DNA of 64,000 bases from a virus: IMG/VR virus record IMGVR_UViG_3300036820_000004, positions 55,754-119,753 of that record; one strand, given 5' to 3'. Of the stretch, positions 2,515 to 50,997 are shown in pieces. The notes beneath the pieces were generated by a model. That model had not been told where the DNA came from. It ran no database searches and worked only from the letters and a program-made list of their open reading frames with translations. The position numbers and the translations under genes were made by a program. The number at the start of each line of letters is the position of its first letter. Within the stretch, counting starts at the first letter, position 1.

Positions 2515-2535
2515 CGTTCGATGCTGGAGGTGACC

Positions 2536-5500
2536 ATGGCCTCCCCTTCGGCCATCCTCGCAGCGAGCAAATCCATGCCCGGCGGGGGCCGGCCGAACCC
2601 GGGCCCCCAGCAGCAGCAAGGCCCTTACATCGGCCGCATGTCCCCGCTGGTGCAGCAACTCAACAATGAGCATGGATATGCGAATACGTATGGCGGCTTT
2701 TTGCCGAGGCCGCCGCAGACGTTTACCGATGGCGCATTCAGCCCGTTCTCGCCGATCATGCCGGTGCCGATTGATGCGCCACCACCTGGCTTCGAGCGGC
2801 CAGAACCCCGGCGATTCGCCTACGAGGTAGGTTACAACCTTCCTATCGGCGACCCGGGCACTGAGGGCGGCTACAAGCTCGCCCCGTTCTCGGTGCTCAA
2901 GTCGCTGTCGAAGAACTACTCGATCGCGCGGCGCTGCATCCAGCTAGTGAAAAAGGAAGTCTGCGGCCTGGACTGGGACATCACCCTCACCTCCCACGCG
3001 GAGAAGGCCTACCAGGGTGACCATGAGGCGCAGCGGGACTTCGGGGAACGGCGCGCGAAGGCGATGCGGTTTTTCCGCAAGCCGGACCCGAACTACTTCG
3101 ACTTCACGTCGTGGATGTCGGCGATGCTGGAGCAGATCCTCACCATCGACGCCCTGAGCTTGTACCTGTGCCCGAAGAAGGGCACCGGGATGGGCCGGGG
3201 CCTGCTCGGCTCGGACCTGGACGGCTTGTGGTGCATCGACGGGGCGACGATCCGGCCGCTGCTGAACCTGCACGGCGGCATGCCCGTCCCCCCCGCGCCC
3301 GCCTACCAGCAGTACGAGTACGGCGTGCCCCGCGCTGATTTCACGACGGTGATGGCCGGCCTGGACCTGCCCGAGATCGCCGGCGGGGAACGCGGGGCTT
3401 ACCGCGGCGACCAGCTGGTCTACCTGCCGATGTGCCCGTTCCCTGACTCGCCGTACGGGTTCTCCCCGACCGAGCAGGCGCTGGTCCCGATCCTGACCGG
3501 GCTCCGCAAGCAGGGCTACCAGCTGGAGTTCTTCACCGAGGGCACCGTGCCCGCGGTTTATATTTCACCAGGCGATACATCCATGACTCCCAATCAGGTA
3601 AGGGAGCTTCAGGATGCATTGAATGCGGTCGCGAACGACCAGGCATTTCATTGGAAAGTCATTGTTTTGCCGCCTGGAAGCAAAACAATGCCACAAAAGC
3701 CTAATGATATTGTCGACCAGAGCGACGAGTGGATCGCCAACGAGGTCTGCATGATGTACGGCGTCTCCCCCATGGACGTCGGCATCCTCCCCAAGGTGTC
3801 CACCGTGGCCAGCCCGTTCGCGGCGCGGGAAATGGCGCAGGCCAGCCGCACCAACCAGGAGAAGACCGACACCACGCCGCTGCTGAAGTTCATCGCCTCG
3901 ATCCCGAACTTCATCCTCCAGATCGTGTGCGACCAGCCGGACATGGAGTTCTCGTTCGAGGGCATGCGCGAGGTCCAGGACGAGGCGGCGCTGACCGACA
4001 CCTACGTCAAGCAGGCGCAGATCGGTGTCCGGTCGGTCGACGAGTTCCGCGACAAGATCGGCCTGCCGCCGTGGGGCCTGGACGAGACGAGCGGCCCGCT
4101 GGTGTTCACGCCGATGGGACCGATCCCCCTGTCGGAGGCCGTGTCGATCGCGCAGGCGCAGGCACAGGCCAAGGCACTGCCGCCCGGGTCGTCCGGCGCC
4201 AAAAAGCCCGCGGTGACCGCGAAGCCGCTGCCGTCCGGCACCGTCACCGGGCGGCAGCGCGCCCGCGGCGGTGCCGCGCTCACCCCGGCGCACGCCGCGT
4301 CCGAAGGGTTCATGCCCGAACGGTCGGCCAAGAAGCCCTCGGCGGGCCCGGCTCACGCCCAGGCGTCAGTTAAGGCGACGCTGGCCGAACTGGAGGCCCT
4401 GACCCGGCACCTGCGCAAGGGACGCCTGATCTCCACATGGGAAGCCCGGCATCTCGAGCCCCGCGCGCTGTCGCTGATCGCCGAGCAGATGGCGAAGGGC
4501 ATGGACGCCGAGCAGGCCGCGGGCCTGGTGAAGACCATCGTCCTGCCGCCCGCGTCCTACCAGTGGGCAGAGAAGGCCCGGCACGAGCAGTCCCCGCAGG
4601 CTCAGATCCAGGCGCAGCAACTGGCCCTGGAGCAGGAGTACACGCGGCGGATCGAGGCCGCGTTCGCGTCCGCTGCCGCCGCGGCGGCGAAACTCATCGC
4701 CGCGTGGGGCGCGGGCACTCTCGCCGTGACTACCGCGGTCCTCGCCGGGCTCATCGCCGCCGAGTTGCGCAAGGCGCTGACGGCAGCGCTGAGCGGCCTG
4801 TGGGCCGACGCGTGGGCGCACGGCGAAGCCGAAGCAGGCGGATCCGCTGGCGGGGCGCTGGAAGCGTTCCTCGGCACCGTCGGCCGGCAGGTGCAGGAGT
4901 GGGTCAGCGAAACCAACGTCGCCGCCATCATCGCCGACCTGCGGGACCTGGCCGGCCTGAAACGCAAGGCCCTGATCGCCGCGCTGCTGCGACTCCTCAA
5001 GGCAGATGAGCGGGCCGAACTCATCGCTGTCACCGAGCTGATGCGCGCCTGGAACCAGGCCGTTCTCGCCGTCTGGAAGCTGCTCGGGGTCACCTATAAG
5101 GGCTGGCAGACCCGCAACGACGCCAAGGTGTGTTTCCCCGCAGGTACGCCCGTGGCGACGCCGACTGGCGAAGTGCCGATCGAGCGGCTAAAGCCCGGGG
5201 ATCTCGTCATCACGCCAGAGGGGCAGCGTCCCGTCATTGCCACCATGGAGCGCCTGTACACAGGTGGCCTTACGGTGATTCAGGCGGAAGGCCGGACGGT
5301 CACGGCGACTGACAATCACCGGTTCATGACCACCAACGGCTGGCGCAAGGCTGCCGACCTCAAGCCCGGGGACCTCCTCAAGTCGCTTGAGGACGAGTCG
5401 GCAGAGATTGGCAGCGTCGTTCACTTCTCGCTCGCCCAGCCGGATGACGTGCCAGCCGAGGCGGCCAAGTTCCGCATCGCGGATGGCGTCCTTGGCCGCA

Positions 5501-7776
5501 GTCCGCTGGTGCCAGTACTCGCCGTCGGCCTCAATGGCGACGGCGAGACTGGTGAGCGCGAAGTCGATCGTCCAGCGGCTCACGTCAAGTTCGGGCGTGA
5601 ACTCAAGGCGCAGCAGGGTGAGCGCCTGACGGACGCGGAACTCCAGCATGGTCTCGCCCGTAAACTTGCGGTAGCAACTGCGGGAGCAGAACTGCCGATC
5701 GGCAGCGGCAAGGCCCGGCTGCGTGCGGAAGGTGACACTGCACGTCTTGCAGGTGAGGTAGACCGGTGGCCGGCGGCATTCCTCGGAACAGAACCGCCTG
5801 TTGAGATGCTTCTCAGCCCGGAAACGCGTTCCGCAGCGGTCACAGTCGACGTACTTGGTCTCGGCAGTGGTACATGCCCGCGAGCACGTCCTGTAGCGCT
5901 CGGCGGTGGACTGGCTGACGGTGAAGTCCTTGCCGCAGACAATGCAGGTCTTCGTGACCTTGCAACTGTCCTCGTAGCACGCCCGGGAGCAGTGGATCTT
6001 GGTCTTGTTATTGAGCCTGCCGGGGCGGAAGACGATGCCGCAGCCCGGGCAAGTGCGTTCGGCGTGGACGCGCGTAGCGGTGTGATAGCACTCGTTGGAG
6101 CAGAAGACTCGGGGGCTCCGGGTGCGCTGAGCACGCACGACGATTTTGCTGCACTGGGCGCATTGGTAAGTGAATGGCACGGACAGGCTTCCCCCATTCA
6201 AGCCATTATCGTTAATCACCCGCTTACAGTTTACAATGTCAGCGTTGAAACGGAGCCCGTTTACTACGCGAGTCGCTTCCTAGTTCACAATTGCGGGGAA
6301 TGCAAGGCCAACCAGGCGGCCGGCTCCATTCCCGTCGGTGCGCGTTTCCCCAGCGGCGACCTGATGCCGCCAGGACATCCGCGCTGCCGGTGTCATGCGA
6401 CCGCGCCCCCGCCCGGCTGGACACCCCCGGTCACGGCCGCGAACAAGAAGCGCAAGCGGGGCGTGAACCTGGACGGCGAAGTCGTTCTGGCCGACGCCAA
6501 GCCCGGAGACGAGAACCCTGCCGGCGGAGGTGGCCGCACCCTTTACCCGCACCGCCCTGACGGAACCGAGGTACCCGGGGGTGTTCCCGGCGCGTCTGCG
6601 GGAGGGGAGCCGCCGCGCTGGGACGCCTCCACCCCGGAACGCCGCGGCTACGTCAACACCTACGGCGAGGACGACGGCGACTGGCCTGAGCATGTCCGCG
6701 AGGTCGCGCCCAGGCCGGATCAGGACTACCCGGACGGCGGCGGCGAAGACGAGGACCTGTGGCCGGAAGGCGGCCACGGCACCGCCCAGCCCCCGGTGAC
6801 GTCGATCGGCGGCGGACCGCGCGGCCGGGCACCAAACGCGGTGGGCAAGGCCGCCGACGCTGCGGCACAGTTCCTGAAGGACGCGCCGAAGGCCAAGGCC
6901 AGCGCGGTGCGCAAGCTCATGCAGGAGAACTTCCCGCCGGACGCCCTCGCCTGGGTAGGTCGCGCCACATGGGTGGGCCCCGTTGAGATCCCGCTGGAAC
7001 TCATGGACCTGTCCGGCCGGAAGGGGTGGGCGGCGAGCCACCAGCAGGGCCACGTCAAGGCCATCGCCCGCGACCTGAAGGCCGGCCGGAAAGTCAACGA
7101 GATCATCGGCGTGCTGCGCCCGGGTCACAACCACGTCCGCCTTGTTGACGGCAGGCATCGCACCCTGGCCTGCGAGAAGAACAAGATGCCGGTCCGCGGC
7201 TACGTCGGGTTCCTGGACCGCGACTCCGACCTGGAAGCGGCGTATGACACCTACCACCAGCAGCATCACTTCGGGGACAGCCCGAAGAACAAGGCCGCAG
7301 GCTACGACCTGAGCCCGCGGTCGGGCATGATCTCCCTGGACCTGCCGGAAGGCCTCATCCAGCCGGTGCCCGGCGGCGTGGACGACCACCACGTGACGGT
7401 CGCCTACCTCGGCAAGGATGTGGACGATAGGGAGCTGGATATTGTGCTGGCGCAGGCACGCACCGCGGCCCGGCATGCTCCGGGCCCGCTGGCCGGGATG
7501 CTGTCCGGCATCGGCTCATTCCCGCCGTCCGATGGCAGTGACGGCATGGTGCCCGCGTTCGTCCCGGCCCGCATCCCCGGCGCGGAGAAGCTCCGCGCCG
7601 ACCTTGAGCACCTGTCGGCCAGCGAGCACAAGGACTGGGCGCCGCACGTCACCCTCGCCTACCTGCAGCCGGGTGAGCCGCTCCCGGCGCCGCATCCCCC
7701 GGTGCCGGTGACGTTCACCCACCTGTCAGTGCACCGGGGCGATGAGGTGTACCGGTTCCCGCTGGGTGGCGAGTGA
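2536..7776 (+). CDS. Portal protein fused to MuF head-morphogenesis domain, ParB-like domain and 2H phosphoesterase domain; intein-containing precursor
   Basis: The frame encodes 1746 residues; splicing out the intein (residues ~866-1252) would leave 1359. ATG 2536 is preferred over ATG 2521 because GGAGG lies at 2526-2530. Residues ~100-500 form a portal-type domain (SVLKSLSKNYSIARRCI, then LTGLRKQGYQLEFF and MMYGVSPMDVG), which would be the dodecameric DNA channel at the capsid vertex. Ala-rich helices at ~690-860 lead into a MuF motif that the intein splits: DAKV before it and CGECKANQ...PPGHPRCRC after it. At ~1478-1590 a ParB/sulfiredoxin-like domain carries VDGRHRTLA. The last ~140 residues carry two HxT motifs, HHVTVAYL (~1618) and PHVTLAYL (~1703), diagnostic of 2H phosphoesterases (2'-5' RNA ligase-like). 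MuF C-termini in temperate phages often carry variable effector domains; delivery of these domains with the DNA is inference. Confidence 0.88.
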   Translation: MASPSAILAASKSMPGGGRPNPGPQQQQGPYIGRMSPLVQQLNNEHGYANTYGGFLPRPPQTFTDGAFSPFSPIMPVPIDAPPPGFERPEPRRFAYEVGYNLPIGDPGTEGGYKLAPFSVLKSLSKNYSIARRCIQLVKKEVCGLDWDITLTSHAEKAYQGDHEAQRDFGERRAKAMRFFRKPDPNYFDFTSWMSAMLEQILTIDALSLYLCPKKGTGMGRGLLGSDLDGLWCIDGATIRPLLNLHGGMPVPPAPAYQQYEYGVPRADFTTVMAGLDLPEIAGGERGAYRGDQLVYLPMCPFPDSPYGFSPTEQALVPILTGLRKQGYQLEFFTEGTVPAVYISPGDTSMTPNQVRELQDALNAVANDQAFHWKVIVLPPGSKTMPQKPNDIVDQSDEWIANEVCMMYGVSPMDVGILPKVSTVASPFAAREMAQASRTNQEKTDTTPLLKFIASIPNFILQIVCDQPDMEFSFEGMREVQDEAALTDTYVKQAQIGVRSVDEFRDKIGLPPWGLDETSGPLVFTPMGPIPLSEAVSIAQAQAQAKALPPGSSGAKKPAVTAKPLPSGTVTGRQRARGGAALTPAHAASEGFMPERSAKKPSAGPAHAQASVKATLAELEALTRHLRKGRLISTWEARHLEPRALSLIAEQMAKGMDAEQAAGLVKTIVLPPASYQWAEKARHEQSPQAQIQAQQLALEQEYTRRIEAAFASAAAAAAKLIAAWGAGTLAVTTAVLAGLIAAELRKALTAALSGLWADAWAHGEAEAGGSAGGALEAFLGTVGRQVQEWVSETNVAAIIADLRDLAGLKRKALIAALLRLLKADERAELIAVTELMRAWNQAVLAVWKLLGVTYKGWQTRNDAKVCFPAGTPVATPTGEVPIERLKPGDLVITPEGQRPVIATMERLYTGGLTVIQAEGRTVTATDNHRFMTTNGWRKAADLKPGDLLKSLEDESAEIGSVVHFSLAQPDDVPAEAAKFRIADGVLGRSPLVPVLAVGLNGDGETGEREVDRPAAHVKFGRELKAQQGERLTDAELQHGLARKLAVATAGAELPIGSGKARLRAEGDTARLAGEVDRWPAAFLGTEPPVEMLLSPETRSAAVTVDVLGLGSGTCPRARPVALGGGLADGEVLAADNAGLRDLATVLVARPGAVDLGLVIEPAGAEDDAAARASAFGVDARSGVIALVGAEDSGAPGALSTHDDFAALGALVSEWHGQASPIQAIIVNHPLTVYNVSVETEPVYYASRFLVHNCGECKANQAAGSIPVGARFPSGDLMPPGHPRCRCHATAPPPGWTPPVTAANKKRKRGVNLDGEVVLADAKPGDENPAGGGGRTLYPHRPDGTEVPGGVPGASAGGEPPRWDASTPERRGYVNTYGEDDGDWPEHVREVAPRPDQDYPDGGGEDEDLWPEGGHGTAQPPVTSIGGGPRGRAPNAVGKAADAAAQFLKDAPKAKASAVRKLMQENFPPDALAWVGRATWVGPVEIPLELMDLSGRKGWAASHQQGHVKAIARDLKAGRKVNEIIGVLRPGHNHVRLVDGRHRTLACEKNKMPVRGYVGFLDRDSDLEAAYDTYHQQHHFGDSPKNKAAGYDLSPRSGMISLDLPEGLIQPVPGGVDDHHVTVAYLGKDVDDRELDIVLAQARTAARHAPGPLAGMLSGIGSFPPSDGSDGMVPAFVPARIPGAEKLRADLEHLSASEHKDWAPHVTLAYLQPGEPLPAPHPPVPVTFTHLSVHRGDEVYRFPLGGE
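5131..6291 (+). other. Intein (387 codons) inserted in the MuF motif of the portal fusion
   Basis: The intein begins at Cys codon 5131-5133 (CFPAGTPVATPTGEVPIERL) and ends at His-Asn (VHN, Asn codon 6289-6291), followed by the +1 Cys of the extein. Block A is therefore intact. Block B is TATDNHRFMTTNGW, with the Thr and His needed for N-S acyl shift. Block F reads VYNVSVETEPVYYASRF. All catalytic residues for protein splicing are present. No LAGLIDADG or sense-strand HNH domain occurs between blocks B and F. The forward translation there is low-complexity and Ala/Gly/Val-rich, because that DNA encodes a nuclease on the opposite strand. Insertion at the most conserved cysteine motif of MuF is typical of inteins, which target sites that cannot easily be lost. 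Confidence 0.9.
5188..6219 (-). CDS. Antisense homing-endonuclease-like gene nested in the intein (zinc-knuckle repeats plus Vsr/DUF559-like nuclease)
   Basis: A 343-codon frame runs opposite to the portal gene entirely within the intein. Its N-terminal ~185 residues hold about five CxxC...Cx3C zinc knuckles (CAQC/CSNEC, CPGC/CSRAC, CIVC/CSRAC, CDRC/CSEEC, CKTC/CSRSC). Residues ~190-285 match a Vsr/DUF559-type PD-(D/E)XK nuclease: an E in LEFRVRQALTLL, WTIDFAL, IEADGEYWHQ, then RDAELGRLGWHVIRL. This is the nuclease class known from split-intein-associated homing endonucleases. The ordered cysteines and nuclease motifs make this a real gene rather than a shadow. The start may be GTG 6219 or, more likely, GTG 6180, which has GGGGGA upstream. 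The last ~65 codons overlap intein blocks A and B in antisense, so both strands are constrained there. Confidence 0.82.
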   Translation of the reverse strand: MINDNGLNGGSLSVPFTYQCAQCSKIVVRAQRTRSPRVFCSNECYHTATRVHAERTCPGCGIVFRPGRLNNKTKIHCSRACYEDSCKVTKTCIVCGKDFTVSQSTAERYRTCSRACTTAETKYVDCDRCGTRFRAEKHLNRRFCSEECRRPPVYLTCKTCSVTFRTQPGLAAADRQFCSRSCYRKFTGETMLEFRVRQALTLLRLEFTPELDVSRWTIDFALTSLAVAIEADGEYWHQRTAAKDAIRDAELGRLGWHVIRLGEREVNDAANLCRLVLKRLEEVPGLEVGSLAPAVGGHEPVIVSRRDRPAFRLNHRKATCVQALHGGNDGTLPLWRDDEIPGL

Positions 7777-8087
7777 TGCTGGCTGATCCGGATCGGCCAT
7801 GCCTGCACGGGAACTTCAGGGCCGGTGTTGAGGTCAACCGCCTCAGCGACACCGAGAATGGCCCGGTCACGGGCTACGCGGCCGATATCAAGGTCTGGTG
7901 CGATGACTGCGGCGAGCCATTTCGCTGGATCGGAGTGCAGGCCGGCCTTGACCCGCGCAGGCCGATGTGTTCCGTGGACGAGACGGAACTTCGAGCACCG
8001 CTGCGGCCTGCATCCGCAGACCCGGACTTCGGTTTGGGCATCCCCGGCTTCGCGGTGACATGGCGCGAGGGTTCCGGCAATGGCTAG
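7776..8087 (+). CDS. Hypothetical zinc-ribbon-like protein
   Basis: A 103-residue protein from ATG 7776, which shares its A with the portal stop (TGATG). The centre contains VWCDDCGEPFRWIG, a CxxC followed by an aromatic FxWxG pattern often seen in small actinophage proteins of unknown role. An N-terminal CLHG could supply more metal ligands. Tight coupling to the portal implies expression with head genes. Confidence 0.7.
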   Translation: MLADPDRPCLHGNFRAGVEVNRLSDTENGPVTGYAADIKVWCDDCGEPFRWIGVQAGLDPRRPMCSVDETELRAPLRPASADPDFGLGIPGFAVTWREGSGNG

Positions 8088-8436
8088 CCGGGTCACCCTC
8101 ACCGCAGCCGAGCTAGCCGGGCTGGGCAAGTCGGCCGAGACCCCGGTCGTTTCCACGGTGCATCACCCGCTCGGCACTCACGGGCTCTGGCACACGCCCG
8201 GCAAGAAGGTGCCGGAGATGCAGCAACTCCCGGCGTATCACCAGAACACAGCGCGGGCGCTCATGCGCGACGAAGGCATGAGCGAGTCGCAGGCCATAGC
8301 GACTGCGATCAACGCCATCCGCGAATGGAAGGCAGGCCGCGCGTTCGGCGGCCGGGTGAAGGTGACACCGGAAGTGCAGGCCGCCGCGGCACGGGCCGAC
8401 GCCGAGTTCGAACGGCTGCGTGCCGCCCATCACTGA
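8080..8436 (+). CDS. Hypothetical head-region protein
   Basis: A 118-residue protein from ATG 8080. The segment LPAYHQNTARALMRDEGMSE followed by SQAIATAINAIREWKAG and a KVTPEVQAAAARADAEFERL tail is a recurrent pattern in phage and prophage head modules, also seen fused to portal or capsid-protease proteins. The biochemical role is unknown. It is coupled to the previous gene by an 8-base overlap and is followed by the Tad2-like gene. Confidence 0.7.
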   Translation: MASRVTLTAAELAGLGKSAETPVVSTVHHPLGTHGLWHTPGKKVPEMQQLPAYHQNTARALMRDEGMSESQAIATAINAIREWKAGRAFGGRVKVTPEVQAAAARADAEFERLRAAHH

Positions 8437-8446
8437 GGAGGATCCT

Positions 8447-8668
8447 TTGGACTTCGGAGACGCGATCAGGGCGCTCAGGGCCGGCCAGCGGGTCACCCGC
8501 GCCGGGTGGAACGGCAAGAACATGTGGCTTGCGCTGCAGGTGCCGGACGCCAACTCCAAGATGACACTGCCTTACATCTACATGAGCACTGTCGCGGGAG
8601 ATCTGGTGCCCTGGCTGGCCAGCCAGACGGACATGCTCGCCGAGGACTGGGAACTCGCCCCGGCGTGA
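8447..8668 (+). CDS. tad2: DUF2829 protein, candidate Thoeris anti-defence protein 2 (Tad2)
   Basis: The 73-residue product spans the full length of DUF2829. It starts MDFGDAIRALRAGQRVTRAG, then has WNGKNMWLAL, and ends with PYIYMSTVAGDLVPWLASQT followed by DMLAEDWE. I chose TTG 8447 because GAGGAG lies at 8435-8440 and family members begin with this MDFG-like sequence; the ATG at 8420 lies inside the previous gene. Characterised DUF2829 proteins (Tad2) are small oligomers that sequester the cyclic ADP-ribose isomer signal of Thoeris immunity. That this copy has the activity is inference from family membership. It lies in the head module beside the portal fusion, and overlaps the next gene's GTG. 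Confidence 0.85.
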   Translation: MDFGDAIRALRAGQRVTRAGWNGKNMWLALQVPDANSKMTLPYIYMSTVAGDLVPWLASQTDMLAEDWELAPA

Positions 8669-8967
8669 GCAAGAAACACGGCGCCAAGCGCAAGCACCGT
8701 AAGAAGGCCGCCAAGCGCGTCCTGTGCGCCTCCTGCCGTCAGCCCGTCGACGAGCCCTGGGGCCTGCTCGCCTCCCTCGCCGCAGCCTTGAACGCCTGCG
8801 AGGACGCCGGGTACAAGGTGGTCCTCACCGGCTGGCAGGCCATCCACACCAAACGCGGCTACGTGCTGCGCCTGAAAGATCGCAGGTGGGCGGCAAGGAC
8901 CCAGGACTACGAGCCGTTCCCGGTCGCAGCCGGGGATGACGTGCTCGGCGACGGGATGGACGACTGA
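8665..8967 (+). CDS. Hypothetical basic zinc-knuckle protein
   Basis: A 100-residue protein from GTG 8665, overlapping the Tad2-like stop. The N-terminus is very basic (SKKHGAKRKHRKKAAKR), followed by one CASC pair, then a compact segment (ACEDAGYKVVLTGWQAIHTK) and an acidic tail. It may bind nucleic acid, but I see no recognised domain. It is the last rightward gene before a small leftward islet. Confidence 0.65.
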   Translation: MSKKHGAKRKHRKKAAKRVLCASCRQPVDEPWGLLASLAAALNACEDAGYKVVLTGWQAIHTKRGYVLRLKDRRWAARTQDYEPFPVAAGDDVLGDGMDD

Positions 8968-8969
8968 GG

Positions 8970-9260
8970 TCAATTCCAGCGTGCAAGCGCCGCGCGGGAA
9001 GTGCTCTCATCCTTGAGCAGGCCGTGCTCACAAGCTGGCCCGACGCTTACCTTCGCATCGCTGCCATCTGCCGCAACGGCCCAGAGATGAGGACCGCCCG
9101 GCAGCAGGCCGTGCGGGAATGAGAGCACCTGATGACATGCAAGAGCGAATCCGCTGCGGGACGTGACAGTCGGCGAATCGCCCACGTAAACGAAGGCCTC
9201 TGCGTCATTCCGGATACCGAGATCATCACAGCCGCAAACCGGGCAGGGTTGGCACATCAC
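8970..9260 (-). CDS. Small zinc-ribbon protein, weakly Lar-like
   Basis: A 96-residue leftward protein starting at 9260. It opens with CQPCPVCGCDDLGIR, has a later ACHQV cysteine and an ACEHG, and ends ...SRAALARWN. The CPxCG start and terminal WN resemble Lar/restriction-alleviation-type zinc ribbons. The match is weak and the spacing is unusual, so the function is open. It overlaps the next upstream leftward gene by 4 bases. Confidence 0.55.
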   Translation of the reverse strand: MMCQPCPVCGCDDLGIRNDAEAFVYVGDSPTVTSRSGFALACHQVLSFPHGLLPGGPHLWAVAADGSDAKVSVGPACEHGLLKDESTSRAALARWN

Positions 9261-9613
9261 GCTTCCAAGGATGCCCGGTCATCCCTCCGCTTGTTTCGGA
9301 TGTGCAGGTTGTACCGGGGATTCGCCGAGAACGACAACCGCAGCGACGGCACCCCGGCCATGAGCCCCCGGAACCCCCCGCCGGACGGCAGGCCGAGCCC
9401 GGTGGTGCGGATCACCTGCGCCGAGAGGGATTCCGGGTCATTCATCTGCCAGTCCTGCGGCTCGCGGGCCTCGTACTCCTTCACTGTCCCGTCGGCCCGT
9501 TCCACGACCACCAGAACCCGGGTCACCCTGTCTGCGTCCTCGTCCTCGTAGCGGATGTCCGCCGATTGCGGGGCCGGTACCAGCACGCCTTCAACTGCCT
9601 CTGATTCGCTCAT
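9257..9613 (-). CDS. Hypothetical protein of a leftward three-gene islet
   Basis: A 118-residue protein. The core TRVLVVVERADGTVKEYEAR and the C-terminal LRLSFSANPRYNLHIRNK form a pattern repeated in actinophage hypothetical proteins of about this size. It overlaps both neighbours by 4 bases, so three leftward genes (9807 to 8970) form a coupled unit inside a rightward operon. The function is unknown. Confidence 0.65.
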   Translation of the reverse strand: MSESEAVEGVLVPAPQSADIRYEDEDADRVTRVLVVVERADGTVKEYEAREPQDWQMNDPESLSAQVIRTTGLGLPSGGGFRGLMAGVPSLRLSFSANPRYNLHIRNKRRDDRASLEA

Positions 9614-9807
9614 TCACGCTCCCGGAGCATCGCTTCTATGTCGGCGGCTAGTTGTTCGCCGCACTGTTCCACTTTGCCGCCGTCCCCGCTGAACGCCACG
9701 AAATGGTATGCGCCCTCAAGGTCCGGGCCACTGTAAACGTTCCAGCCGATAGCGCCGTCAGGTAGCGGCGGTAGCGCCTCAAGCGGCCATGGCTCGGTCT
9801 CGCTCAT
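9610..9807 (-). CDS. Small acidic hypothetical protein
   Basis: A 65-residue acidic protein, first gene of the leftward islet. It carries GAIGWNVYSGPDLEGAYHF and a helical tail QLAADIEAMLRERE. Its start lies just 27 bases from the divergent rightward gene, so any promoter for the islet must overlap that coding start. No family was recognised. Confidence 0.55.
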   Translation of the reverse strand: MSETEPWPLEALPPLPDGAIGWNVYSGPDLEGAYHFVAFSGDGGKVEQCGEQLAADIEAMLRERE

Positions 9808-9834: not shown

Positions 9835-10197
9835 GTGTACGTGGGTCCGGTCAGCGTCGCCCCGTTCTGCCTTGACTGCGGCCGGGTGCTTTCCCGCTGC
9901 CCGTGCCCTGAGTCAACTCCAAGTCCCAGCCCTCCGGCTAGGACTTCGCTTGGAGGTGCGGCCGTGTTCCTGGACGGCGAGCGCGAGGAACTTCTCGATG
10001 ACCTGATGGCCGCCCTGAACCGTCTCGCCGACGCGGGCTGCCCGGTTACCGTCAAAGACGGCCGGCTGGACTCCCGCGCCGGGATGGTCGTTCCCTCGCC
10101 GCGGGGCCGGTGGACTTCCCGTCCCCTGATCCCGTCGTTCGCTTCCCGCCCGTGGCCTCCGGTGCTGTCCGAGCACCTGGACGAGGACGGCTGGTGA
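9835..10197 (+). CDS. Hypothetical protein
   Basis: A 120-residue protein. GTG 9835 is preferred because GGGAGG at 9824-9829 is well spaced; ATG 9817 is an in-frame alternative. It has an N-terminal CLDCGRVLSRCPCPE cluster, a helical stretch EREELLDDLMAALNRLADAG and a Pro/Trp-rich C-terminus. It is coupled to the next gene by GTGA. Confidence 0.6.
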   Translation: MYVGPVSVAPFCLDCGRVLSRCPCPESTPSPSPPARTSLGGAAVFLDGEREELLDDLMAALNRLADAGCPVTVKDGRLDSRAGMVVPSPRGRWTSRPLIPSFASRPWPPVLSEHLDEDGW

Positions 10198-10667
10198 CCG
10201 CAGGCTGCGCCCGCTGCGGCGAATGCTGCACGCACATCTGGCTGAACGCCGACCCGCGTCCCTACTCCACGGGCGCCCTTGACGGCGTACCCGATCCCGG
10301 CACCGAGGTCGGCTGGGCTTACTGGCTTGAGCACAGCCGCTACCGCGAGGCAGACCGTGACGATGCCATCCGCCGCTACAACCCGGACGGCAGCATGCGC
10401 GCCAATGCGGACTTCGTAGCTGCGCACTGGGCAGAGACCTGCGACGGTCACTGGACCTGCGACGCCTACGACCCCGAGCACGCCACCTGCACCGCGCATG
10501 AGAACCGGCCGCCGCTCTGCCGCGACTATCCCTGGTACGGCGAGGAACCCGACCCGGAACGCGCGGACCACATGTACCGCCAATGCTCCTACCTCGCCGA
10601 CCTGCCGCCCGACAAACGCCCCGATGACGCACGCCCGCTTATCCCGCTAGCCGTCATCTCGCACTGA
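10194..10667 (+). CDS. YkgJ-type cysteine-cluster protein
   Basis: The 157-residue product has the cysteine-cluster layout of YkgJ/UPF0153 proteins: CARCGECCTHIWL at the N-terminus and RPPLCRDYPW with a preceding C-H-W-T-C-D-A-Y segment later. Proteins of this family are thought to bind a metal or Fe-S centre; the biochemical role is unknown. GTG 10194 overlaps the previous stop. This family is common in bacterial genomes and occasionally carried by phages; why it lies in a head module is not evident. Confidence 0.75.
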   Translation: MTAGCARCGECCTHIWLNADPRPYSTGALDGVPDPGTEVGWAYWLEHSRYREADRDDAIRRYNPDGSMRANADFVAAHWAETCDGHWTCDAYDPEHATCTAHENRPPLCRDYPWYGEEPDPERADHMYRQCSYLADLPPDKRPDDARPLIPLAVISH

Positions 10668-10700: not shown

Positions 10701-13700
10701 GTGGCCGCTGCAGTCCTGACCGAGCCCGAGGCCGCGAAGGCTGCGACCACGTCTGCCGGTGATGACCTCGTCTACTTCTCGATGCCCATCGAGAAGTCGG
10801 AGGACACCAAGACCGTCAATCCCGTGGACGGCACCCCCGACATAGAAATCTTCGGGAAAGTGACCGACGGGACTGTTGACTCGGATCTTCAGGTGGTCGA
10901 TCCCGAGGCCAGCCTGCGGTGGATCAAGCGCTGGAAGGACGACGGCAAAGCCAACGTCCGGATGCAGCATGATCCGAAGAAGCCGGTCGGCAAAGGCCTG
11001 CACGTCGATGGCCACAACGTCCGTGCCCTGATCGCTGACCCGATCGCGAAGCACTTCATCCGCACGGGCATCCTCAACGACTGGTCCATCGGGATCATGA
11101 ACCCGGACATCCGCCGGGGCGATCCCGCATTCAAGCACCTGGACCCGGCGGGCAAGGCCATCAACGGCGTGATCACCGACCGGGCGGACGGGCTCACCGG
11201 ACTGGGTGAGATCAGCGTTGTCGACCGCGGGTCGAATTACGGCACCAAGTTCTCCCTGTGCAAGGCAGCGGCCGATGGCTCGGTGGAGTGGACCGGCGAG
11301 CTGACCGCGCCAGACGAGGTGCTGGCCAAGGCCGCGGCCCCGGCGAAGCCCAAGACGGTGACGGTCGAACTGCCGGCCGACATGCACGTCAGCATCAAGC
11401 CGTCCCAGCTGGCCAGGCTTGCCACGTTCGGGCAGCAGCTGGCGCGCGAGCAGGCGGCAGCGAAGGGCGCCGTGCCGTCGGTGATCACCAAGACGGCGGA
11501 ACCGGATGCGGCCAAGGCTGACAATGCTGCACCCGAACCGGTTCCCGGCGCCCTGCATGACGCTGTGCTGAACCGCGCCGCGGAGGCAGCGGTTTACAAG
11601 CGCGACATCGACACCGCGACCCGCAGCCGTCTCGCCAGCGAGGGCAAGGCGCTGAGCGACGGCTCATACCCGATCGAAACCGAATCGGACATGCACAATG
11701 CCTACACCCTCGCCCGGTCCAAGCACGGGAAGTGGAAGGCCGCGCTCAAGCTCATCGCCCGCCGCGCGAAGCAGGAGGGCTGGACGCCTCCGGGTAAGCA
11801 GGACAAGGTCGCGGCCAAGGGCGCCAAGCCGCAGGTCACCAAGTGCATGAAGTGCGACGGCTCCGGGATGACAGACGGCAAGCCCTGCCCGGACTGCAAG
11901 AAAGGCAAGAAGGCACTCAAGGCGCAGAAGCGCACGATCCGCAAGGCGCTCCGCCACCTGGACGATTTCGCCTCCGTGGTCAACGGCCAGCCGGCGACCA
12001 AGAAGGCCAAGGTCCTGTGCGGCGGCTGCGGGGCCAAGCAGAGCCGCAAGCATCAGATGTGCACCGAATGCGGCAAGCCCATGGCCGGGGCCATGCCGGT
12101 CACCAAGAACCACGACTTCCGGTGCCTGGGCTGCGGCCACGACCCGCTCGACAAGGGCGAGAAGCACTGCCCGCAGTGCGGCAAGGAAAACCCCGGCTAC
12201 AACCCGATGGCCGACCACAAAATCCCCATGAACGCGGGCAAGGCAGCCGCTAAGGAGCGTGTGAGCAAGCGGAAGAAGGCCAAGAGCGGCAAGGGCAAGA
12301 AGGGGAACCCGTTCGGGGACAAGCAGGCTCCTCCCTTCGGCGCCAAAGACGACAGCGGCGAGGACGGCGGGAAAAAGCCATCCAGGGCCAAGAAGGCCGC
12401 GAGCCCGCAGGCCGCCAAGCGCAAGGGAAAGGGCAAGGGCCGCAACCCGGCGCACGGTGTCACCGGCCACGGCGGCGACGTCAAGGGCCTGCCCGCTCAC
12501 CGCGAACCGGACGGCGCGCCGGTCGAGGAGTTCGAGGACGACGCGAACATGCAGGACGGCGACGAACGGCAGGAAATGGCCGCGGCGATGCGCCACAAAG
12601 CCCTCGGGGCCGCGGGCCTGTCCCGCGAGGACGCGCTCCTGCACGACCTGACCTGCGCCGCGTTCCGCCCGGCGGACGTGCGCAAATGCTTCCCCTACGC
12701 CTCCCTCGGCGACATCGACGGCGCCATGTGGCAGCGGCAGGCCCTGATGAAGGCCGCGGCCGCCCCGGCAGCGGAAGCGCTCGCGATGCGGGACCTGTTC
12801 CGCCACGCCGAAACCCTCAAGAACGCATCGGATGACCTGCTGCTAGACCTGCGTGAGCAGGCCCACGCGGACTTCCTCGCGGTCAACAAGGTGCTGACTG
12901 ACGCCACCCCGGGCCCGGCGTCGTTCCCGACCCCGGCGCATGTCACCCCGCAGCAGTATCAGCGGCCGTACATTCACGAGGGCCATTCGGCGCCGTCACC
13001 GCAGCAGGGCGCCCCGCACGACTTCCGCGTTCCCGAAGGCCAGCCGTCGGCGGAGGACTTCACCCGCGGATTCCTCGCCGATGGCCGCGCCGCGGACGCC
13101 CCGGCCAACGACACCCCCCGGCATGAGCCCATTCCGGCACCGATGACCCCCGGCATGCCGTCCCGCGTTTATTACACCGGGGCGATGCGGGACAACGCCC
13201 GCCAGGCGATGACCGCCATGCACGACCACATCTCCCGCGTTTTCCCCGACGTGTGCCCCATGTCCCCGGAGGTCAGCGGCATTCAGAAGCCCGCACCGCA
13301 GGTCCCCGAAGGCGTCGGCGGCCCGGCACCGAGGAGCGGCAAGAAGGCCGCGAAGGCGAAGGCCCGCAAGCAGCGCAAAGCCCTGGCCGCCAAGCGCCGC
13401 CGTCTCGAGCAGCGCGTCCTGAAGGGATCGATGACCGTGAAGCAGGCACGCCGCAAGCTCGGCCTCAAGGCCAAGGGCGCCAACCTCACAGCGATGAAGC
13501 TGGCCAAGGCGTTGCCTTCTCCTTCGGTGCCGGTTCCTTCTCCGCTGGATCCGGACGTCATCAAGGCGGCCATCGCCGAGGCCAACGCGCCGCTCCTCGA
13601 GCGCATCGCCGCCCAGGACAAGACCCTGCGCAAGCAGCGGAAGGCCATCGACGCCATCGCCGACCACGCCGACACCTCCCAGGCCCCCCTCCGCGGGGTG

Positions 13701-13895
13701 GTCTCCCTCAACAAGGCTTCTGCGGCGCCGGCGGCGCCGCAGACCGCTACGGCATCCGCGGAGCGGGTGCAGATGGCGGAACTCCAGCGACTCCACTACG
13801 TGTCGCGCTCCAGCCCGGACCCGGGCATGCGGGAAGCAGCCCGCCGGGACCTCGAAACCAAGCTCGGACTGGACTCCATGACCCCTCAGACGTAA
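10701..13895 (+). CDS. Prohead protease-like / scaffold fusion with DUF6582 and zinc-ribbon segments
   Basis: The 1064-residue protein lies directly before the capsid gene and starts at GTG 10701. Residues ~25-190 resemble an HK97-type prohead protease: IFGKVTDGTVDSDLQVVDPE, later ILNDWSIGIMNP and GLGEISVVDRGSN. Residues ~290-370 contain a DUF6582-like segment (LASEGKALSDGSYPI, then ESDMHNAYTLARS). Three zinc modules follow: CMKCDGSGMTDGKPCPDC (DnaJ-like), CGGCGAKQSRKHQMCTECG and CLGCGHDPLDKGEKHCPQCG. A Lys/Ala-rich linker and a C-terminal coiled coil ending near APLRGVVSLNKA look like a scaffold. Cleavage of the scaffold from the capsid during maturation is the expected role. It is much longer than a typical ~200-residue protease. 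Confidence 0.78.
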   Translation: MAAAVLTEPEAAKAATTSAGDDLVYFSMPIEKSEDTKTVNPVDGTPDIEIFGKVTDGTVDSDLQVVDPEASLRWIKRWKDDGKANVRMQHDPKKPVGKGLHVDGHNVRALIADPIAKHFIRTGILNDWSIGIMNPDIRRGDPAFKHLDPAGKAINGVITDRADGLTGLGEISVVDRGSNYGTKFSLCKAAADGSVEWTGELTAPDEVLAKAAAPAKPKTVTVELPADMHVSIKPSQLARLATFGQQLAREQAAAKGAVPSVITKTAEPDAAKADNAAPEPVPGALHDAVLNRAAEAAVYKRDIDTATRSRLASEGKALSDGSYPIETESDMHNAYTLARSKHGKWKAALKLIARRAKQEGWTPPGKQDKVAAKGAKPQVTKCMKCDGSGMTDGKPCPDCKKGKKALKAQKRTIRKALRHLDDFASVVNGQPATKKAKVLCGGCGAKQSRKHQMCTECGKPMAGAMPVTKNHDFRCLGCGHDPLDKGEKHCPQCGKENPGYNPMADHKIPMNAGKAAAKERVSKRKKAKSGKGKKGNPFGDKQAPPFGAKDDSGEDGGKKPSRAKKAASPQAAKRKGKGKGRNPAHGVTGHGGDVKGLPAHREPDGAPVEEFEDDANMQDGDERQEMAAAMRHKALGAAGLSREDALLHDLTCAAFRPADVRKCFPYASLGDIDGAMWQRQALMKAAAAPAAEALAMRDLFRHAETLKNASDDLLLDLREQAHADFLAVNKVLTDATPGPASFPTPAHVTPQQYQRPYIHEGHSAPSPQQGAPHDFRVPEGQPSAEDFTRGFLADGRAADAPANDTPRHEPIPAPMTPGMPSRVYYTGAMRDNARQAMTAMHDHISRVFPDVCPMSPEVSGIQKPAPQVPEGVGGPAPRSGKKAAKAKARKQRKALAAKRRRLEQRVLKGSMTVKQARRKLGLKAKGANLTAMKLAKALPSPSVPVPSPLDPDVIKAAIAEANAPLLERIAAQDKTLRKQRKAIDAIADHADTSQAPLRGVVSLNKASAAPAAPQTATASAERVQMAELQRLHYVSRSSPDPGMREAARRDLETKLGLDSMTPQT

Positions 13896-13943: not shown

Positions 13944-16691
13944 GTGACAGCAGTTCTGGACGGCACCATCCCGTCCCTGAATGACGGCGTGACCGCGCCG
14001 CCGCCCGACCAGGTCACCAAGGCGCTCTACGGAGAAGCCGCACGGCCCGACCTGGGCACCAGCCAGTACTCGAACACCGCCGAAGCCCTCGTCGGCAAGA
14101 TGAGCCACCTCGTCAAGGGCGCCGGCTTCGCCGGCGAGGGCGGCAACACGCCGCTGACCAACCAGGCCGACATCGGCCGCCGCGCGTTCGAGGCGACGAT
14201 CGACCTGCGTTCCGCCACCCGCCAGGGCATCTACGCCAAGTCGACGGTGGTCAAGTCCATGTCCCAGGATTTCCTGGGCCGGTTCGGCGCGCTGCGCCTG
14301 GCCCTGGAAACCCCGTCCATCCAGGAGTTCATCGGCACCGTCGCCAGCCCGGACATCGCCCGGTCATTCACGGCCGGAAATTTGGGGATAGGGTCGACGT
14401 ACGGTTTGACCCCTTTCAACCTGTTGGCTCCCTCCCGCCTTAACTAGATGGGGCCGTCGCGCCGTGAGGCGCGGATGACAACTCCGCGAACTGCTGGAAC
14501 ACCCGAGCCACCTGCGTGCGCCACAACGTGAGGCGAAAGCCTGAGCGTGACGGCCGAAAAGCTACGCAGCAGGGGCAATCAGCAGCCAAGCCCGCCTGCC
14601 GTCGGCGACGGGAAGGTCCAGAGAGCATGCACGGAGCGCCTCCCTGAGGCGATGATGTGCTCCGAGCCTGCGTGAGAGCGCAGGAGGCGACCGGAAACGA
14701 GCCGCCCCTCTGTTGAAACGGACAGAGAGTAACAATTTACGCATCTATCCCATCTATACCGTCAACTAGGCGGCTCCGGAGGGCGACCTCCGGATGACAA
14801 GCGCACTGCCCGGGGAACCCCGCCCGTATACTGACCTGAAGCCGTCGCTCGCGCCCTCCTCATACAGGGGTACGATCGGCGGTTTGCTGTGTCTGGGGAA
14901 TCCCGGTCCGCGGCGATGCCCGCCGCGGTGTAGAGACTGTACGTGCGCGCTCTGCCACGGACGCGGCCACGGGGCATTACGTGGCCACGGCCGCAGAGCA
15001 TGAGACAGTCCGGACCTGCGTGGATGGCAAACCGCAGGAGGCGCACGGAAACGATGCGCCCGCTCGCCTCTTCGGCGAGAGGTAACAGAATCGCTACCGC
15101 AACAAGTTCGCCCGGCCGCCCGGCCAGGGCGCGTCCCTGATCGAGCGTCTCGCGGTCGGCATCTCCGGTTCACAGACCGGCGGCCAGTCCGTGCTGGACT
15201 TCTCGATCCCTGAGATGGTGCAAACCGGCGGGTCGTTCGGCCAGTGGCCGCTCAACCTGCCCCCGGCCGTCAGCGAGCAGTTTGTGACACTGAACGTGCC
15301 GTATCGTTTCTTCGGCGTCACGGAGCAGCTCAGCTTCCTCGCCCAGTGGGCAGGGCAGGGGTTCGAGGATCTGTCCGCGCTCGCCAACCTGATCCTTCTG
15401 CAGGCCGCCATGCAAGCGGAGGAGTTCCAGCTGATCGCGGGATCGTCGGCGAACCTGGCCATCCCGGCCGCGCCAACGTGCACGGTCCGCAACGCCCAGT
15501 CCAACGAGACCGCGCTGTCCACTTCGGTCGTCAACGTCCAGGTGGCTGCGGCGAACTACTTCGGCCGCACGGCTTCCAGCGGGTCCACGTCGGTGACGGT
15601 GGGCGCGGGCCAGGTCGTGGACGTGACCATCTCGCCTGTGACCGGGGCGATGAACTACCAGATCTTCGGCCTTTCCTCGGTCCCGACCACGTACCTGCTC
15701 GCGACCTGCGGGGGCGTGAAGTACACGCTGCAGGGCGCGCTGCCCGCGGCGGTCACCACCAACCCGACGGCTGACACCGGCACCGGGGCCGGAACCCGGA
15801 TGGAAGGCGTCATCCCGACCCTGACCGGCCTGTCGGCGCAGGCGGCCATCTACCCGAACGGCAACCCGATCGTCTGGCAGGGCGGCTACGTCAACCAGAA
15901 CGTCGGCCAGCACCTCAACTACAACGTCATCTACACCGCGCTGAAGGCGCTGTTCGACTCGCCGTCGATCTCGCCGGGGGCGTTCAAGGCCGACCCGGCG
16001 GAGATCATCTCCTCGGGTTCGGACATCGCGAACCTGTCCCAGGATGTGATCTCGCAGGGTTCGGGCACCAACTTCGAGCTGTTCATCAAGCAGGGCGAAG
16101 TCGGGAACGTCACCGTCGGTGCGGCCGTCAGCCAGTTCCAGAACCCGGTCACGAGGTCCATCCTGAAGACCGTGGTCCACCCGTTCTACCTGCAAGGCAA
16201 CGCGGAACTGCTGTCCTACCAGCTCCCCCAGAGCTGGACGAACGTGGCCAACGCGTGGGAAGTGTCCTGCGTGCAGGACTATGTGACGCTCAACTAACTA
16301 GGGCGCGCGGCAGGGTGACCTGCCGTGGAAAACGGCACTGTTCGGGGAACCCCTCCAATCACCGGGGAATCCCGAGCTTCAGCGATGCCCGCTGGAGTGT
16401 AGAGACTGTACGTGCCGGATCTGTGCGACGGGATCAGCGACGGGGCATTACGCCGCTGGCACCGCAGATCATGAGACAGGCCGATCTGCACCGATGGAAA
16501 AGGTGCAGAGGCCGGCAGAAATGACCGGCCCGCTCACCATCTGGTGAGAGGTAACAGAATGCGCACTCCCCGTGATCGATGTGACCTACAGGTACATCCT
16601 CCTGCTCATGGCTGCCCTGGTGGCCCATGCTCCGATGTATTCTGCCCACCTGGGCGGTTTGCAGCAGTCTGATGTGACTCCGTACAGTTAG
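13944..16691 (+). CDS. Major capsid protein gene, four exons interrupted by three group I introns
   Basis: Predicted exons are 13944-14440, 14742-14762, 15094-16290 and 16562-16691 (497+21+1197+130 = 1845 nt, 614 residues). Exon 1 starts at GTG and ends ...NLLAPSRL. Exon 2 gives IYPIYTV. Exon 3 resumes YRNKFARPPGQGASLIERL and runs to QDYVTL. Exon 4 adds ALPVIDVTYRYILLLMAALV and ends QSDVTPYS. Joined, they make one continuous frame with the order expected of this actinophage capsid family (PFNLLAPSRLIYP...RN...AR..GQG). Without splicing, translation stops at 14447, and no other start would restore the protein. The exact splice points were chosen from a U at each 5' site, a terminal G at each 3' site and frame continuity. 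The assignment to major capsid rests on position after the protease and on remembered family sequence. Confidence 0.85.
14441..14741 (+). ncRNA. Group I intron 1 in the capsid gene (301 nt)
   Basis: Core elements are visible: Q-like GCAATCAGCAGCCAAG at 14575-14590; an R-like GTCCAGAGAGCATGCACGG around 14617-14635; and an S-like GATGATGTGCTCC at 14651-14663. P7 can pair GAGCA (14623-14627) with TGCTC (14658-14662). The 5' exon end GCCU pairs with GGGC shortly inside the intron, giving the U.G splice-site pair of P1. The terminal base is G 14741. There is no internal ORF or endonuclease. Its core differs from introns 2 and 3, so it is probably a different subgroup. Confidence 0.82.
14763..15093 (+). 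ncRNA. Group I intron 2 in the capsid gene (331 nt)
   Basis: The R-like element GTGTAGAGACTGTACGTG (near 14928-14945) and S-like CATGAGACAGTCC (14999-15011) can form P7 by pairing GACTGT (14935-14940) with ACAGTC (15005-15010). P1 is CCGU of exon 2 with GCGG in the intron, with U.G at the splice site. The 3' end is GAGGTAACAGAATCG, with terminal G 15093. It has no ORF. It shares multiple blocks with intron 3 and is evidently a copy of the same intron lineage. Confidence 0.82.
16291..16561 (+). ncRNA. Group I intron 3 in the capsid gene (271 nt)
   Basis: The same core blocks as intron 2 are present in the same order: CGGGGAACCCC, GGGGAATCCCG, GTGTAGAGACTGTACGTG (16397-16414), GGGGCATTACG, ATCATGAGACAGGCC and GAGGTAACAGAAT. 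P1 pairs exon 3 CGCU with GGCG. The terminal G is 16561. It is shorter than intron 2 because a peripheral segment between the first two blocks is missing. It lacks an endonuclease ORF. Confidence 0.82.
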
Positions 16692-49512: not shown

Positions 49513-50997
49513 ATGGACAGCGTCCCGCCCCGCGAATACGCCCTTTACCTCCGGAAAAGCAACGGCCCCATAGGTATCCTGCGGCAGCGTACCGCCACGA
49601 CGACCTATATCAAGGGCAAAGGCGGCGTCATCGGTCCCGTGTTCGAGGACGCCGACCGGACCGCCTTCCGGAAGGGCACTGACCGGCCTGAGCGCGAGGG
49701 CTTCGACGAGATGCTCGGATGGCTGAGCCAGCGGAGCGGCGCTGGCGCTGCCGCATGGCACGCCGACCGGTTCGTGCGGGATCCCGAGGAAGCCGAACTG
49801 CTGATCCGTGTGTGCCGGGACCGCGGTCACATGGTCGAAACCAAGGCGGGCGGCGCCTATGACATGTCCACCGCGAACGGGCGCAAGCACTTCCGCCAGG
49901 ATGCACTGGACGCTACCACCGAGGTCGACCACAACACCGAGCGCATCATCGAGCAGAAGGCCGAGGCCGCCGCGGCGGGCCTGTGGCTCGGTGGCCTGCG
50001 CCCGTTCGGCTGGGAAGGCATCCCTGCCGAGCCGGGCAGCGAGACCAAGTTCCTCGGCCTTCGTGTCGTCCCGCTCGAGGCCGCCGCGCTCCGCTCGGCC
50101 GCCGGGGCGATCCTGGAAGGCACCAGCGTCACGTCGATCGCTGCGGAGTGGAATGCCCGCGGCATCAAAGGCACCTCTGGCGGCCCGTGGGACGCCGGGC
50201 GGCTGAAGCGGGTGCTGCTGCGCCCTCGCAACGCCGGGCTCGTCGTCCACAACGGCGTCGAGAAGGGGACCGCACAGTGGGATCCGGTCATGCCGCTCGA
50301 GGTGTTCCGCGCACTAGAAGTGAAACTGAACGGCCGGAGGAAACCGGGCCACCCGTCTGCAAGGGTCTGGCAGGGATCGGGCTTGTACCGGTGCGGGGTG
50401 TGTGACAAGCCCGTTGGCGTGCACGGCGGCACCGGGGGGCATCACCGGACGTCCTACACCTGCCCGGGTCACGTAGCCCGTCAGGCAGTCAAGGTCGACA
50501 AGCACGTGAGCGCTATCGTCACCGCTTACCTTGGTCGCCTGGAAGCCGCCGCCGCCCTGGCCGCGGCAACAGTGCCAAGAGGCGAGGACGTCACGCTGCT
50601 GCGGGCGCAGATCACCGCCATCGAAGGGCGCCGCAAACGCGTCGCCGAGCGTTATGTTGACGGCACGGCTGATGACGACGAGCTCGACGCGTCAGTTGCC
50701 CGCGCCCGCGAGGAAATCGCGGCGCTGGAGAAGCGGATCGCCGAAGCGGGGCGGGTGAATCCCCTCACCAGCGTGGCGGGAGACCAGCGCATCGGTGAGA
50801 AGTGGCCCGGCTACCCGGTCAGCCGCAGGCAGGCCATCATCCGGGAACTGCTCGTGGTACGAATCCACCCCGCCGGGCCCGGCCGGCCGCCGGGTGTCCA
50901 GTGGCCGGAGACATGGTTTGACAGGGACCTGATCGAGATCCTTCCCGGGCCGGTGTTCGGCGCGGCCGCCCCGGCTGCGCCGCTGACCGTCCCGTAG
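49513..50997 (+). CDS. int: Large serine recombinase (phage integrase)
   Basis: A 494-residue protein. The N-terminal catalytic domain has ALYLRKSNG (probable nucleophile Ser16), AWHADRFVRDPEEAELL in the place of the conserved DR..R, and a recombinase domain (GLWLGGLRPFGWEGIPAEPG; SVTSIAAEWNARGIKGTSGG). The zinc ribbon is GLYRCGVCDKPVGVHGG...TSYTCPGHVAR. A coiled coil at ~375-440 (QITAIEGRRKRVAERYVDGT) completes the large-serine-integrase plan. Such enzymes integrate with simple attP/attB sites and need a separate directionality factor. The attP would be expected near 49.4-49.5 kb or past 51.0 kb but was not identified. Confidence 0.9.
   Translation: MDSVPPREYALYLRKSNGPIGILRQRTATTTYIKGKGGVIGPVFEDADRTAFRKGTDRPEREGFDEMLGWLSQRSGAGAAAWHADRFVRDPEEAELLIRVCRDRGHMVETKAGGAYDMSTANGRKHFRQDALDATTEVDHNTERIIEQKAEAAAAGLWLGGLRPFGWEGIPAEPGSETKFLGLRVVPLEAAALRSAAGAILEGTSVTSIAAEWNARGIKGTSGGPWDAGRLKRVLLRPRNAGLVVHNGVEKGTAQWDPVMPLEVFRALEVKLNGRRKPGHPSARVWQGSGLYRCGVCDKPVGVHGGTGGHHRTSYTCPGHVARQAVKVDKHVSAIVTAYLGRLEAAAALAAATVPRGEDVTLLRAQITAIEGRRKRVAERYVDGTADDDELDASVARAREEIAALEKRIAEAGRVNPLTSVAGDQRIGEKWPGYPVSRRQAIIRELLVVRIHPAGPGRPPGVQWPETWFDRDLIEILPGPVFGAAAPAAPLTVP

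Follow-up and report, generated by a model that had tools for sequence, protein, structure and literature searches.

What a Tad2-like gene is doing in the head module of a phage is the question raised by this locus: whether it encodes an intact anti-Thoeris sponge, a component of the head or a gene of no current use, and whether its location is itself unusual. The DNA analysed, referred to here as the window, is 64,000 nt long, spans positions 55754-119753 of a metagenomic viral record 119,753 bases long and has a GC content of 67.7%. We consider it probable, with good confidence, that the gene encodes an intact anti-Thoeris sponge of the Tad2 type, carried as exchangeable cargo in the head operon and without a structural role.

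Family membership and fold

The gene and its ribosome-binding site are located as follows.

8447..8668, + strand: Tad2-like protein gene, 73 aa, TTG start (PF11195, AF2 model and Foldseek)
8436..8441, + strand: Shine-Dalgarno sequence AGGAGG of the Tad2-like gene, 5 nt upstream of the TTG (sequence reading)

Direct reading of the sequence gives an exact frame from the TTG at 8447 to a TGA stop codon at 8666-8668, and the GC content by codon position (0.61/0.49/0.88) is like that of other genes of the same phage. The PF11195 profile of the Tad2-like family (formerly DUF2829) matches the ORF over profile positions 1-72 of 73 with an E-value of 4.9e-27 and 94.7 bits against a curated cut-off of 25 bits (Pfam), in agreement with the identity proposed in a first-pass annotation of this DNA. 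A profile search of the whole 119,753-base record found no second PF11195 copy. Among solved relatives matched by sequence, SptTad2 is the best (8e-16), followed by SPO1 Gp34.65 (3e-13), MoTad2 (2e-12), HgmTad2 (7e-12) and AcrIIA7 (3e-10). The same annotation had called the protein full-length, which holds for coverage of the whole domain but not for size, since it is a short Tad2, some 13-30 residues below the solved ones, the difference lying in β2-β5.

The AlphaFold2 model of the monomer, built from an alignment of 55 homologues, has a pLDDT of 94.1. In a Foldseek search of the PDB its top match is SPO1 Tad2 in complex with 1''-3' gcADPR (8smf_H; TM 0.89, 44% identity), so that the comparison with known Tad2 structures that had been suggested earlier comes out in favour of the family, as far as a predicted model goes. 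All 24 PDB matches at E<=0.001 are Tad2-family chains, and the next unrelated fold in the ranking has an E-value of 0.3.

The 13 columns that are invariant among 55 homologues are all kept (R18, W21, G23, M39, P42, Y43, V54, P55, W56, D62, L64, D67 and W68). The 8447-8668 protein is also identical at each position where conservation among 54 homologues reaches 85%. The conserved RxGWNGK and SxxDxxAxDW motifs are both present, in line with the earlier claim of intact N- and C-terminal motifs. Loss of the gcADPR-binding residues, which had been named as an observation that would count against the assignment, is not apparent as far as conservation can tell, because all of the highly conserved positions are kept. 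The protein is a complete, intact member of the Tad2 family and an ordinary new addition to a family that is already known.

A variable slot in the head module

The neighbourhood of the gene contains the following features.

2521..7776, + strand: portal-MuF fusion ORF with an intein and a C-terminal 2H phosphoesterase domain (PF04860 2.9e-16, PHROG portal 2.1e-53, Hint_2 1.8e-10)
7773..8087, + strand: small ORF between the portal and g8080, no family match (ORF list)
8080..8436, + strand: g8080, 118-aa conserved head-module ORF and left flank of the slot (homologues in relatives)
8665..8967, + strand: g8665, 100-aa ORF and right flank of the slot (sequence; homologues in L107, L130, L135 and L257)
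10701..13895, + strand: probable head maturation protease/scaffold ORF (order conserved in most of 79 relatives; protease role assigned by eye)
15191..16297, + strand: putative major capsid protein (position and conservation; its PHROG family is of 'unknown function')

The first-pass placement within the head module is confirmed by this order, with the portal/MuF ORF upstream and the protease/scaffold-like ORF and putative capsid gene downstream. The GTG start codon of g8665 overlaps the stop codon of the Tad2-like gene (GTGA).

No close relative of the phage was found in the phage collection searched. Relatives were taken as 79 viral loci collected with the putative major capsid protein, among which the gene order is portal, (g8080), (g8665), protease/scaffold-like, g13944 and capsid. 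Homologues of g8080 follow the portal gene in a dozen or so relatives, including L107, L113, L118, L123, L130, L135, L136, L148, L150 and L257, the last of which is the closest relative with 80% DNA identity over the portal. PF11195 over its cut-off is absent from the records of the ten relatives searched. Both flanks are kept in four relatives, and there the slot differs from one phage to the next: in L107 it holds an unrelated 77-aa ORF whose junctions on either side are almost identical in sequence to those here (CACTGAGGAG...GGCGTGAGCAAG); in L130 it is empty and the g8080 stop overlaps the next start; in L135 no gene lies between the flanks and both flanking sequences are in one ORF; and in L257 it holds other ORFs, one of them ribbon-helix-helix-like by eye. 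A search using g8665 alone found no further slots. Because the slot holds other ORFs or nothing where both flanks survive, the Tad2-like gene is, by comparison of these sequences, an ORF-precise exchangeable cargo and no head component, which is one of the options that the first-pass annotation had offered.

The position of the gene among head genes and its translational coupling to its neighbour would also be expected of a structural or assembly factor of the head that happens to have a Tad2 fold. A Tad2-like protein is, however, missing at the locus from all 79 capsid-matched relatives, relaxed thresholds included, their slot is empty or occupied by unrelated ORFs, and in other phages the family is found in regions of early or metabolic genes; we regard a head factor as very improbable, and a structural role in the virion was rejected on the absence of the gene from these relatives.

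The region between the portal and protease genes is itself variable over about 2.9 kb. It comprises three short overlapping minus-strand ORFs within the plus-strand head module (8970-9807), which have no family match, together with flanking small ORFs; a putative metal-chelating protein with a CxxCxxCC motif (PF03692) is encoded within it at 10110-10667.

The most surprising finding lies in the portal ORF, where a DUF559 nuclease is encoded antisense within the intein, an arrangement that is conserved in other phages.

5131-6291, + strand: intein in the portal-MuF ORF (Hint_2 match in the portal ORF; absent at the same position in L257)
5188-6219, - strand: 343-aa zinc-finger DUF559/Vsr-like nuclease, antisense across the intein (DUF559 2.4e-9)

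The nuclease is probably a homing endonuclease. Over the central part of the intein it is the nuclease strand that carries the coding signature (0.56/0.53/0.82 GC by position, against 0.82/0.53/0.56 for the intein frame), and third positions of the nuclease take the largest share of the substitutions between the window and L262 (154 versus 105 and 88). The nested antisense arrangement is also present in L262, L264-L267 and L268, as judged from opposite-strand alignment to the intein of the window. The opposite frame is open through the intein for 673 codons in L262 and 842 codons in L264; the probability of a chance 280-codon open frame is about 2e-10 in L264 (32% GC), and for the AT-rich phages with this arrangement that of a chance open frame is about 1e-10 to 1e-9. 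A literature search of limited scope found no description of an intein with a nested antisense nuclease, and the architecture is possibly undescribed.

At the C-terminus of the portal, 7324-7776 encodes a fused 2H phosphoesterase (2'-5' RNA ligase-like) domain, in which two HxT motifs are conserved. A portal-fused 2H domain occurs in 5 of the 79 relatives and is absent from L257. It is closest in fold to LigT/CPDase and to 'RNA ligase'/capsid morphogenesis proteins of actinophages, which match far better than Acb1, and an Acb1-like anti-CBASS reading was for that reason rejected as first choice.

Ligand class, timing and host

Tad2 family members cover several ligands, including gcADPR, His-ADPR and cyclic dinucleotides (PMC12043709, PMC13299392), so the specificity of this one is a guess. 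The anti-Thoeris class is a homotetramer with two inter-subunit ligand pockets; those for gcADPR are lined by the β1-β2, β3-β4 and β4-α3 loops, and cyclic dinucleotides are bound in the β2-β5 insertion of long Tad2s (PMC12043709, a review).

SPO1 Tad2 (Gp34.65; PDB 8SME/8SMF/8SMG/8WJE), the closest match in fold, has the GWNGKNM and SQTDxLAEDW motifs in common with the 8447-8668 protein; it is 89-90 aa long against 73 aa here, with about 13 fewer residues here between β2 and the C-terminal half, and it differs from the present gene in not sharing the head-operon location. SptTad2 (8WJD) and HgmTad2/AcrIIA7 (8KBI series) are of the same family, and their WLASQTD is identical in the 8447-8668 protein, but they have the long insertion between β2 and β5 that is a feature of cyclic-dinucleotide binding and is absent here: in the alignment, the gap from D34 to P42 is 7 residues, compared with roughly 20-37 in SPO1, SptTad2 and HgmTad2. 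MoTad2, from a Myroides odoratus prophage (8V3E, 9EIB), has the same fold (TM 0.83-0.89), but its ligand is His-ADPR (PMC13299392) and it has SVSD where the 8447-8668 protein has SQTD, as in the gcADPR-type SPO1. Since the β2-β5 insertion is missing, an ADPR-type (Thoeris) sponge appears likelier than a CBASS sponge, which is unlikely by the known binding mode. A cADPR isomer is the best guess for the ligand class, because the protein is closer to SPO1 than to MoTad2 in this respect.

The phage is probably temperate, and lysogeny plausible, because a serine integrase is encoded (49513..50997, + strand; phrog_95 5.6e-58; Resolvase/Recombinase domains). The best whole-protein matches of the Tad2-like protein include two mycobacteriophages among phages and Haloactinopolyspora, Nonomuraea, Amycolatopsis and Micromonospora among cellular sequences, which makes an actinobacterium the likely host. 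A search of 198 actinobacterial genomes for capsid homologues gave a single match at 33% and three marginal hits. Of 198 genomes sampled from an actinobacterial class, 15 contain a ThsB_TIR domain, counted alone, and a Thoeris target is on that account plausible.

In the scheme that we infer for the tetramer, ligand, timing, host and target, the product of the gene, which came as an exchangeable cargo ORF into the variable slot flanked by two small conserved genes and is translationally coupled into the head operon, would be made together with the head proteins. A host ThsB (TIR protein) that senses infection would make an ADP-ribose-based signal, a cADPR isomer, which the 73-aa protein, assembled as a Tad2 homotetramer, would bind and sequester, so that the Thoeris effector of the actinobacterial host would stay off. 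Gene order and translational coupling are the whole basis on which late expression is suggested. A scan for a local σ70 promoter at the gene, of a kind that is weak for actinophages, found none. Delivery with virions and protection of lysogens, both raised in the first-pass annotation, are conjectural, and the latter would need expression of Tad2 outside the late operon.

Three other readings accept the fold but differ on its use. The protein could be a sponge mainly for another signal, either CBASS cyclic dinucleotides or the His-ADPR of type II Thoeris, as the ligand breadth of the family and the structures of HgmTad2/AcrIIA7 and SptTad2 with cGG (PDB titles) would allow; the short D34-P42 gap and the SVSD of MoTad2 argue against this, as does the lack of 3'3'-cGAMP binding by SPO1 Tad2, which is intermediate in length (PMC11722364), and we consider it unlikely. 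It is rather improbable that the gene is a neutral passenger, intact but of no current use in the host of the phage: among the relatives only this phage has it, and Thoeris in the host is hypothetical, yet the conserved positions are all intact, codon usage is matched to the phage and the ribosome-binding site is strong. An AcrIIA7-type anti-CRISPR directed at Cas9 is brought to mind by the presence of AcrIIA7 in the same family and by some phage homologues annotated as anti-CRISPR; AcrIIA7 itself has been solved as a sponge with 1',2'-cADPR and cGG (PDB title 8kbk), and this reading is extremely improbable.

Tad2-like genes among head genes of other phages

The earlier suggestion that the location is remarkable does not survive comparison, as other phages have Tad2-like genes among head and packaging genes, and the head-module position is not unusual. 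The order is terminase, Tad2, portal in L010, and terminase, portal, protease/MuF, Tad2, scaffold-like, capsid-like in the actinobacterial prophage of Haloactinopolyspora (L167; terminase and protease assigned by PHROG, portal by tblastn, scaffold and capsid by eye). Klebsiella phage NNA-G4 (Drulisvirus) has a Tad2-like gene after the major capsid gene. In the mycobacteriophages Curiosium and MalagasyRose, gene 4 encodes a short DUF2829 protein (67% and 61% identical to the 8447-8668 protein, respectively) shortly upstream of the terminase genes; these are unrelated phages with another insertion point. Elsewhere, Tad2-like genes adjoin ribonucleotide reductase, clamp loader, lysis or NAD-salvage genes.

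At least nine terminase large subunits are found among the closest larger genes beside Tad2-like genes on viral contigs. In a uniform-placement test on 21 contigs, seven genes lay within 4 kb of a terminase versus 3.6 expected (p 0.054), with p-values of 0.10 at 2 kb and 0.17 at 8 kb on the same contigs; enrichment as a sign of functional placement is not supported, being significant at none of these distances. Nor is a single origin of the head-module copies supported: the five labelled copies form no one clade, in a tree whose columns are too few for the 8447-8668 copy to be positioned.

Several other arrangements were seen in the same survey. In Aeromonas phage Ahp1 (L256:3983-5911) the Tad2-like gene is directly beside a nicotinamide phosphoribosyltransferase gene, linking a sponge with NAD salvage. 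Two adjacent Tad2-like copies occur in one record in G232:C1:29079-29896 (L047) and in G233:C1:33450-33948 (L049), and the G233 pair adjoins a terminase gene.

A ThsB1 is reported to sense the major head protein of a phage (PMC12043709), and a sponge made from the head operon could for that reason be well timed. A broader and tentative proposal, to which we give a low probability, is that Tad2-type sponges have been repeatedly inserted in capsid operons since the capsid protein can trigger Thoeris, as a just-in-time counter-defence. If so, co-transcription would supply the sponge at the time of, and in proportion to, the appearance of the capsid trigger, and such insertion would have come about separately in the present phage, in L010, in L167, in Drulisvirus NNA-G4 and in the two mycobacteriophages.

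As a compact, intact Tad2 from a high-GC temperate phage, the protein lends itself to the questions of the minimum size of a Tad2 and of the signal that is retained without the cyclic-dinucleotide insertion. The exchange of ORFs in a slot of a head operon shows that anti-defence genes need not be in early regions and are worth seeking among structural genes.
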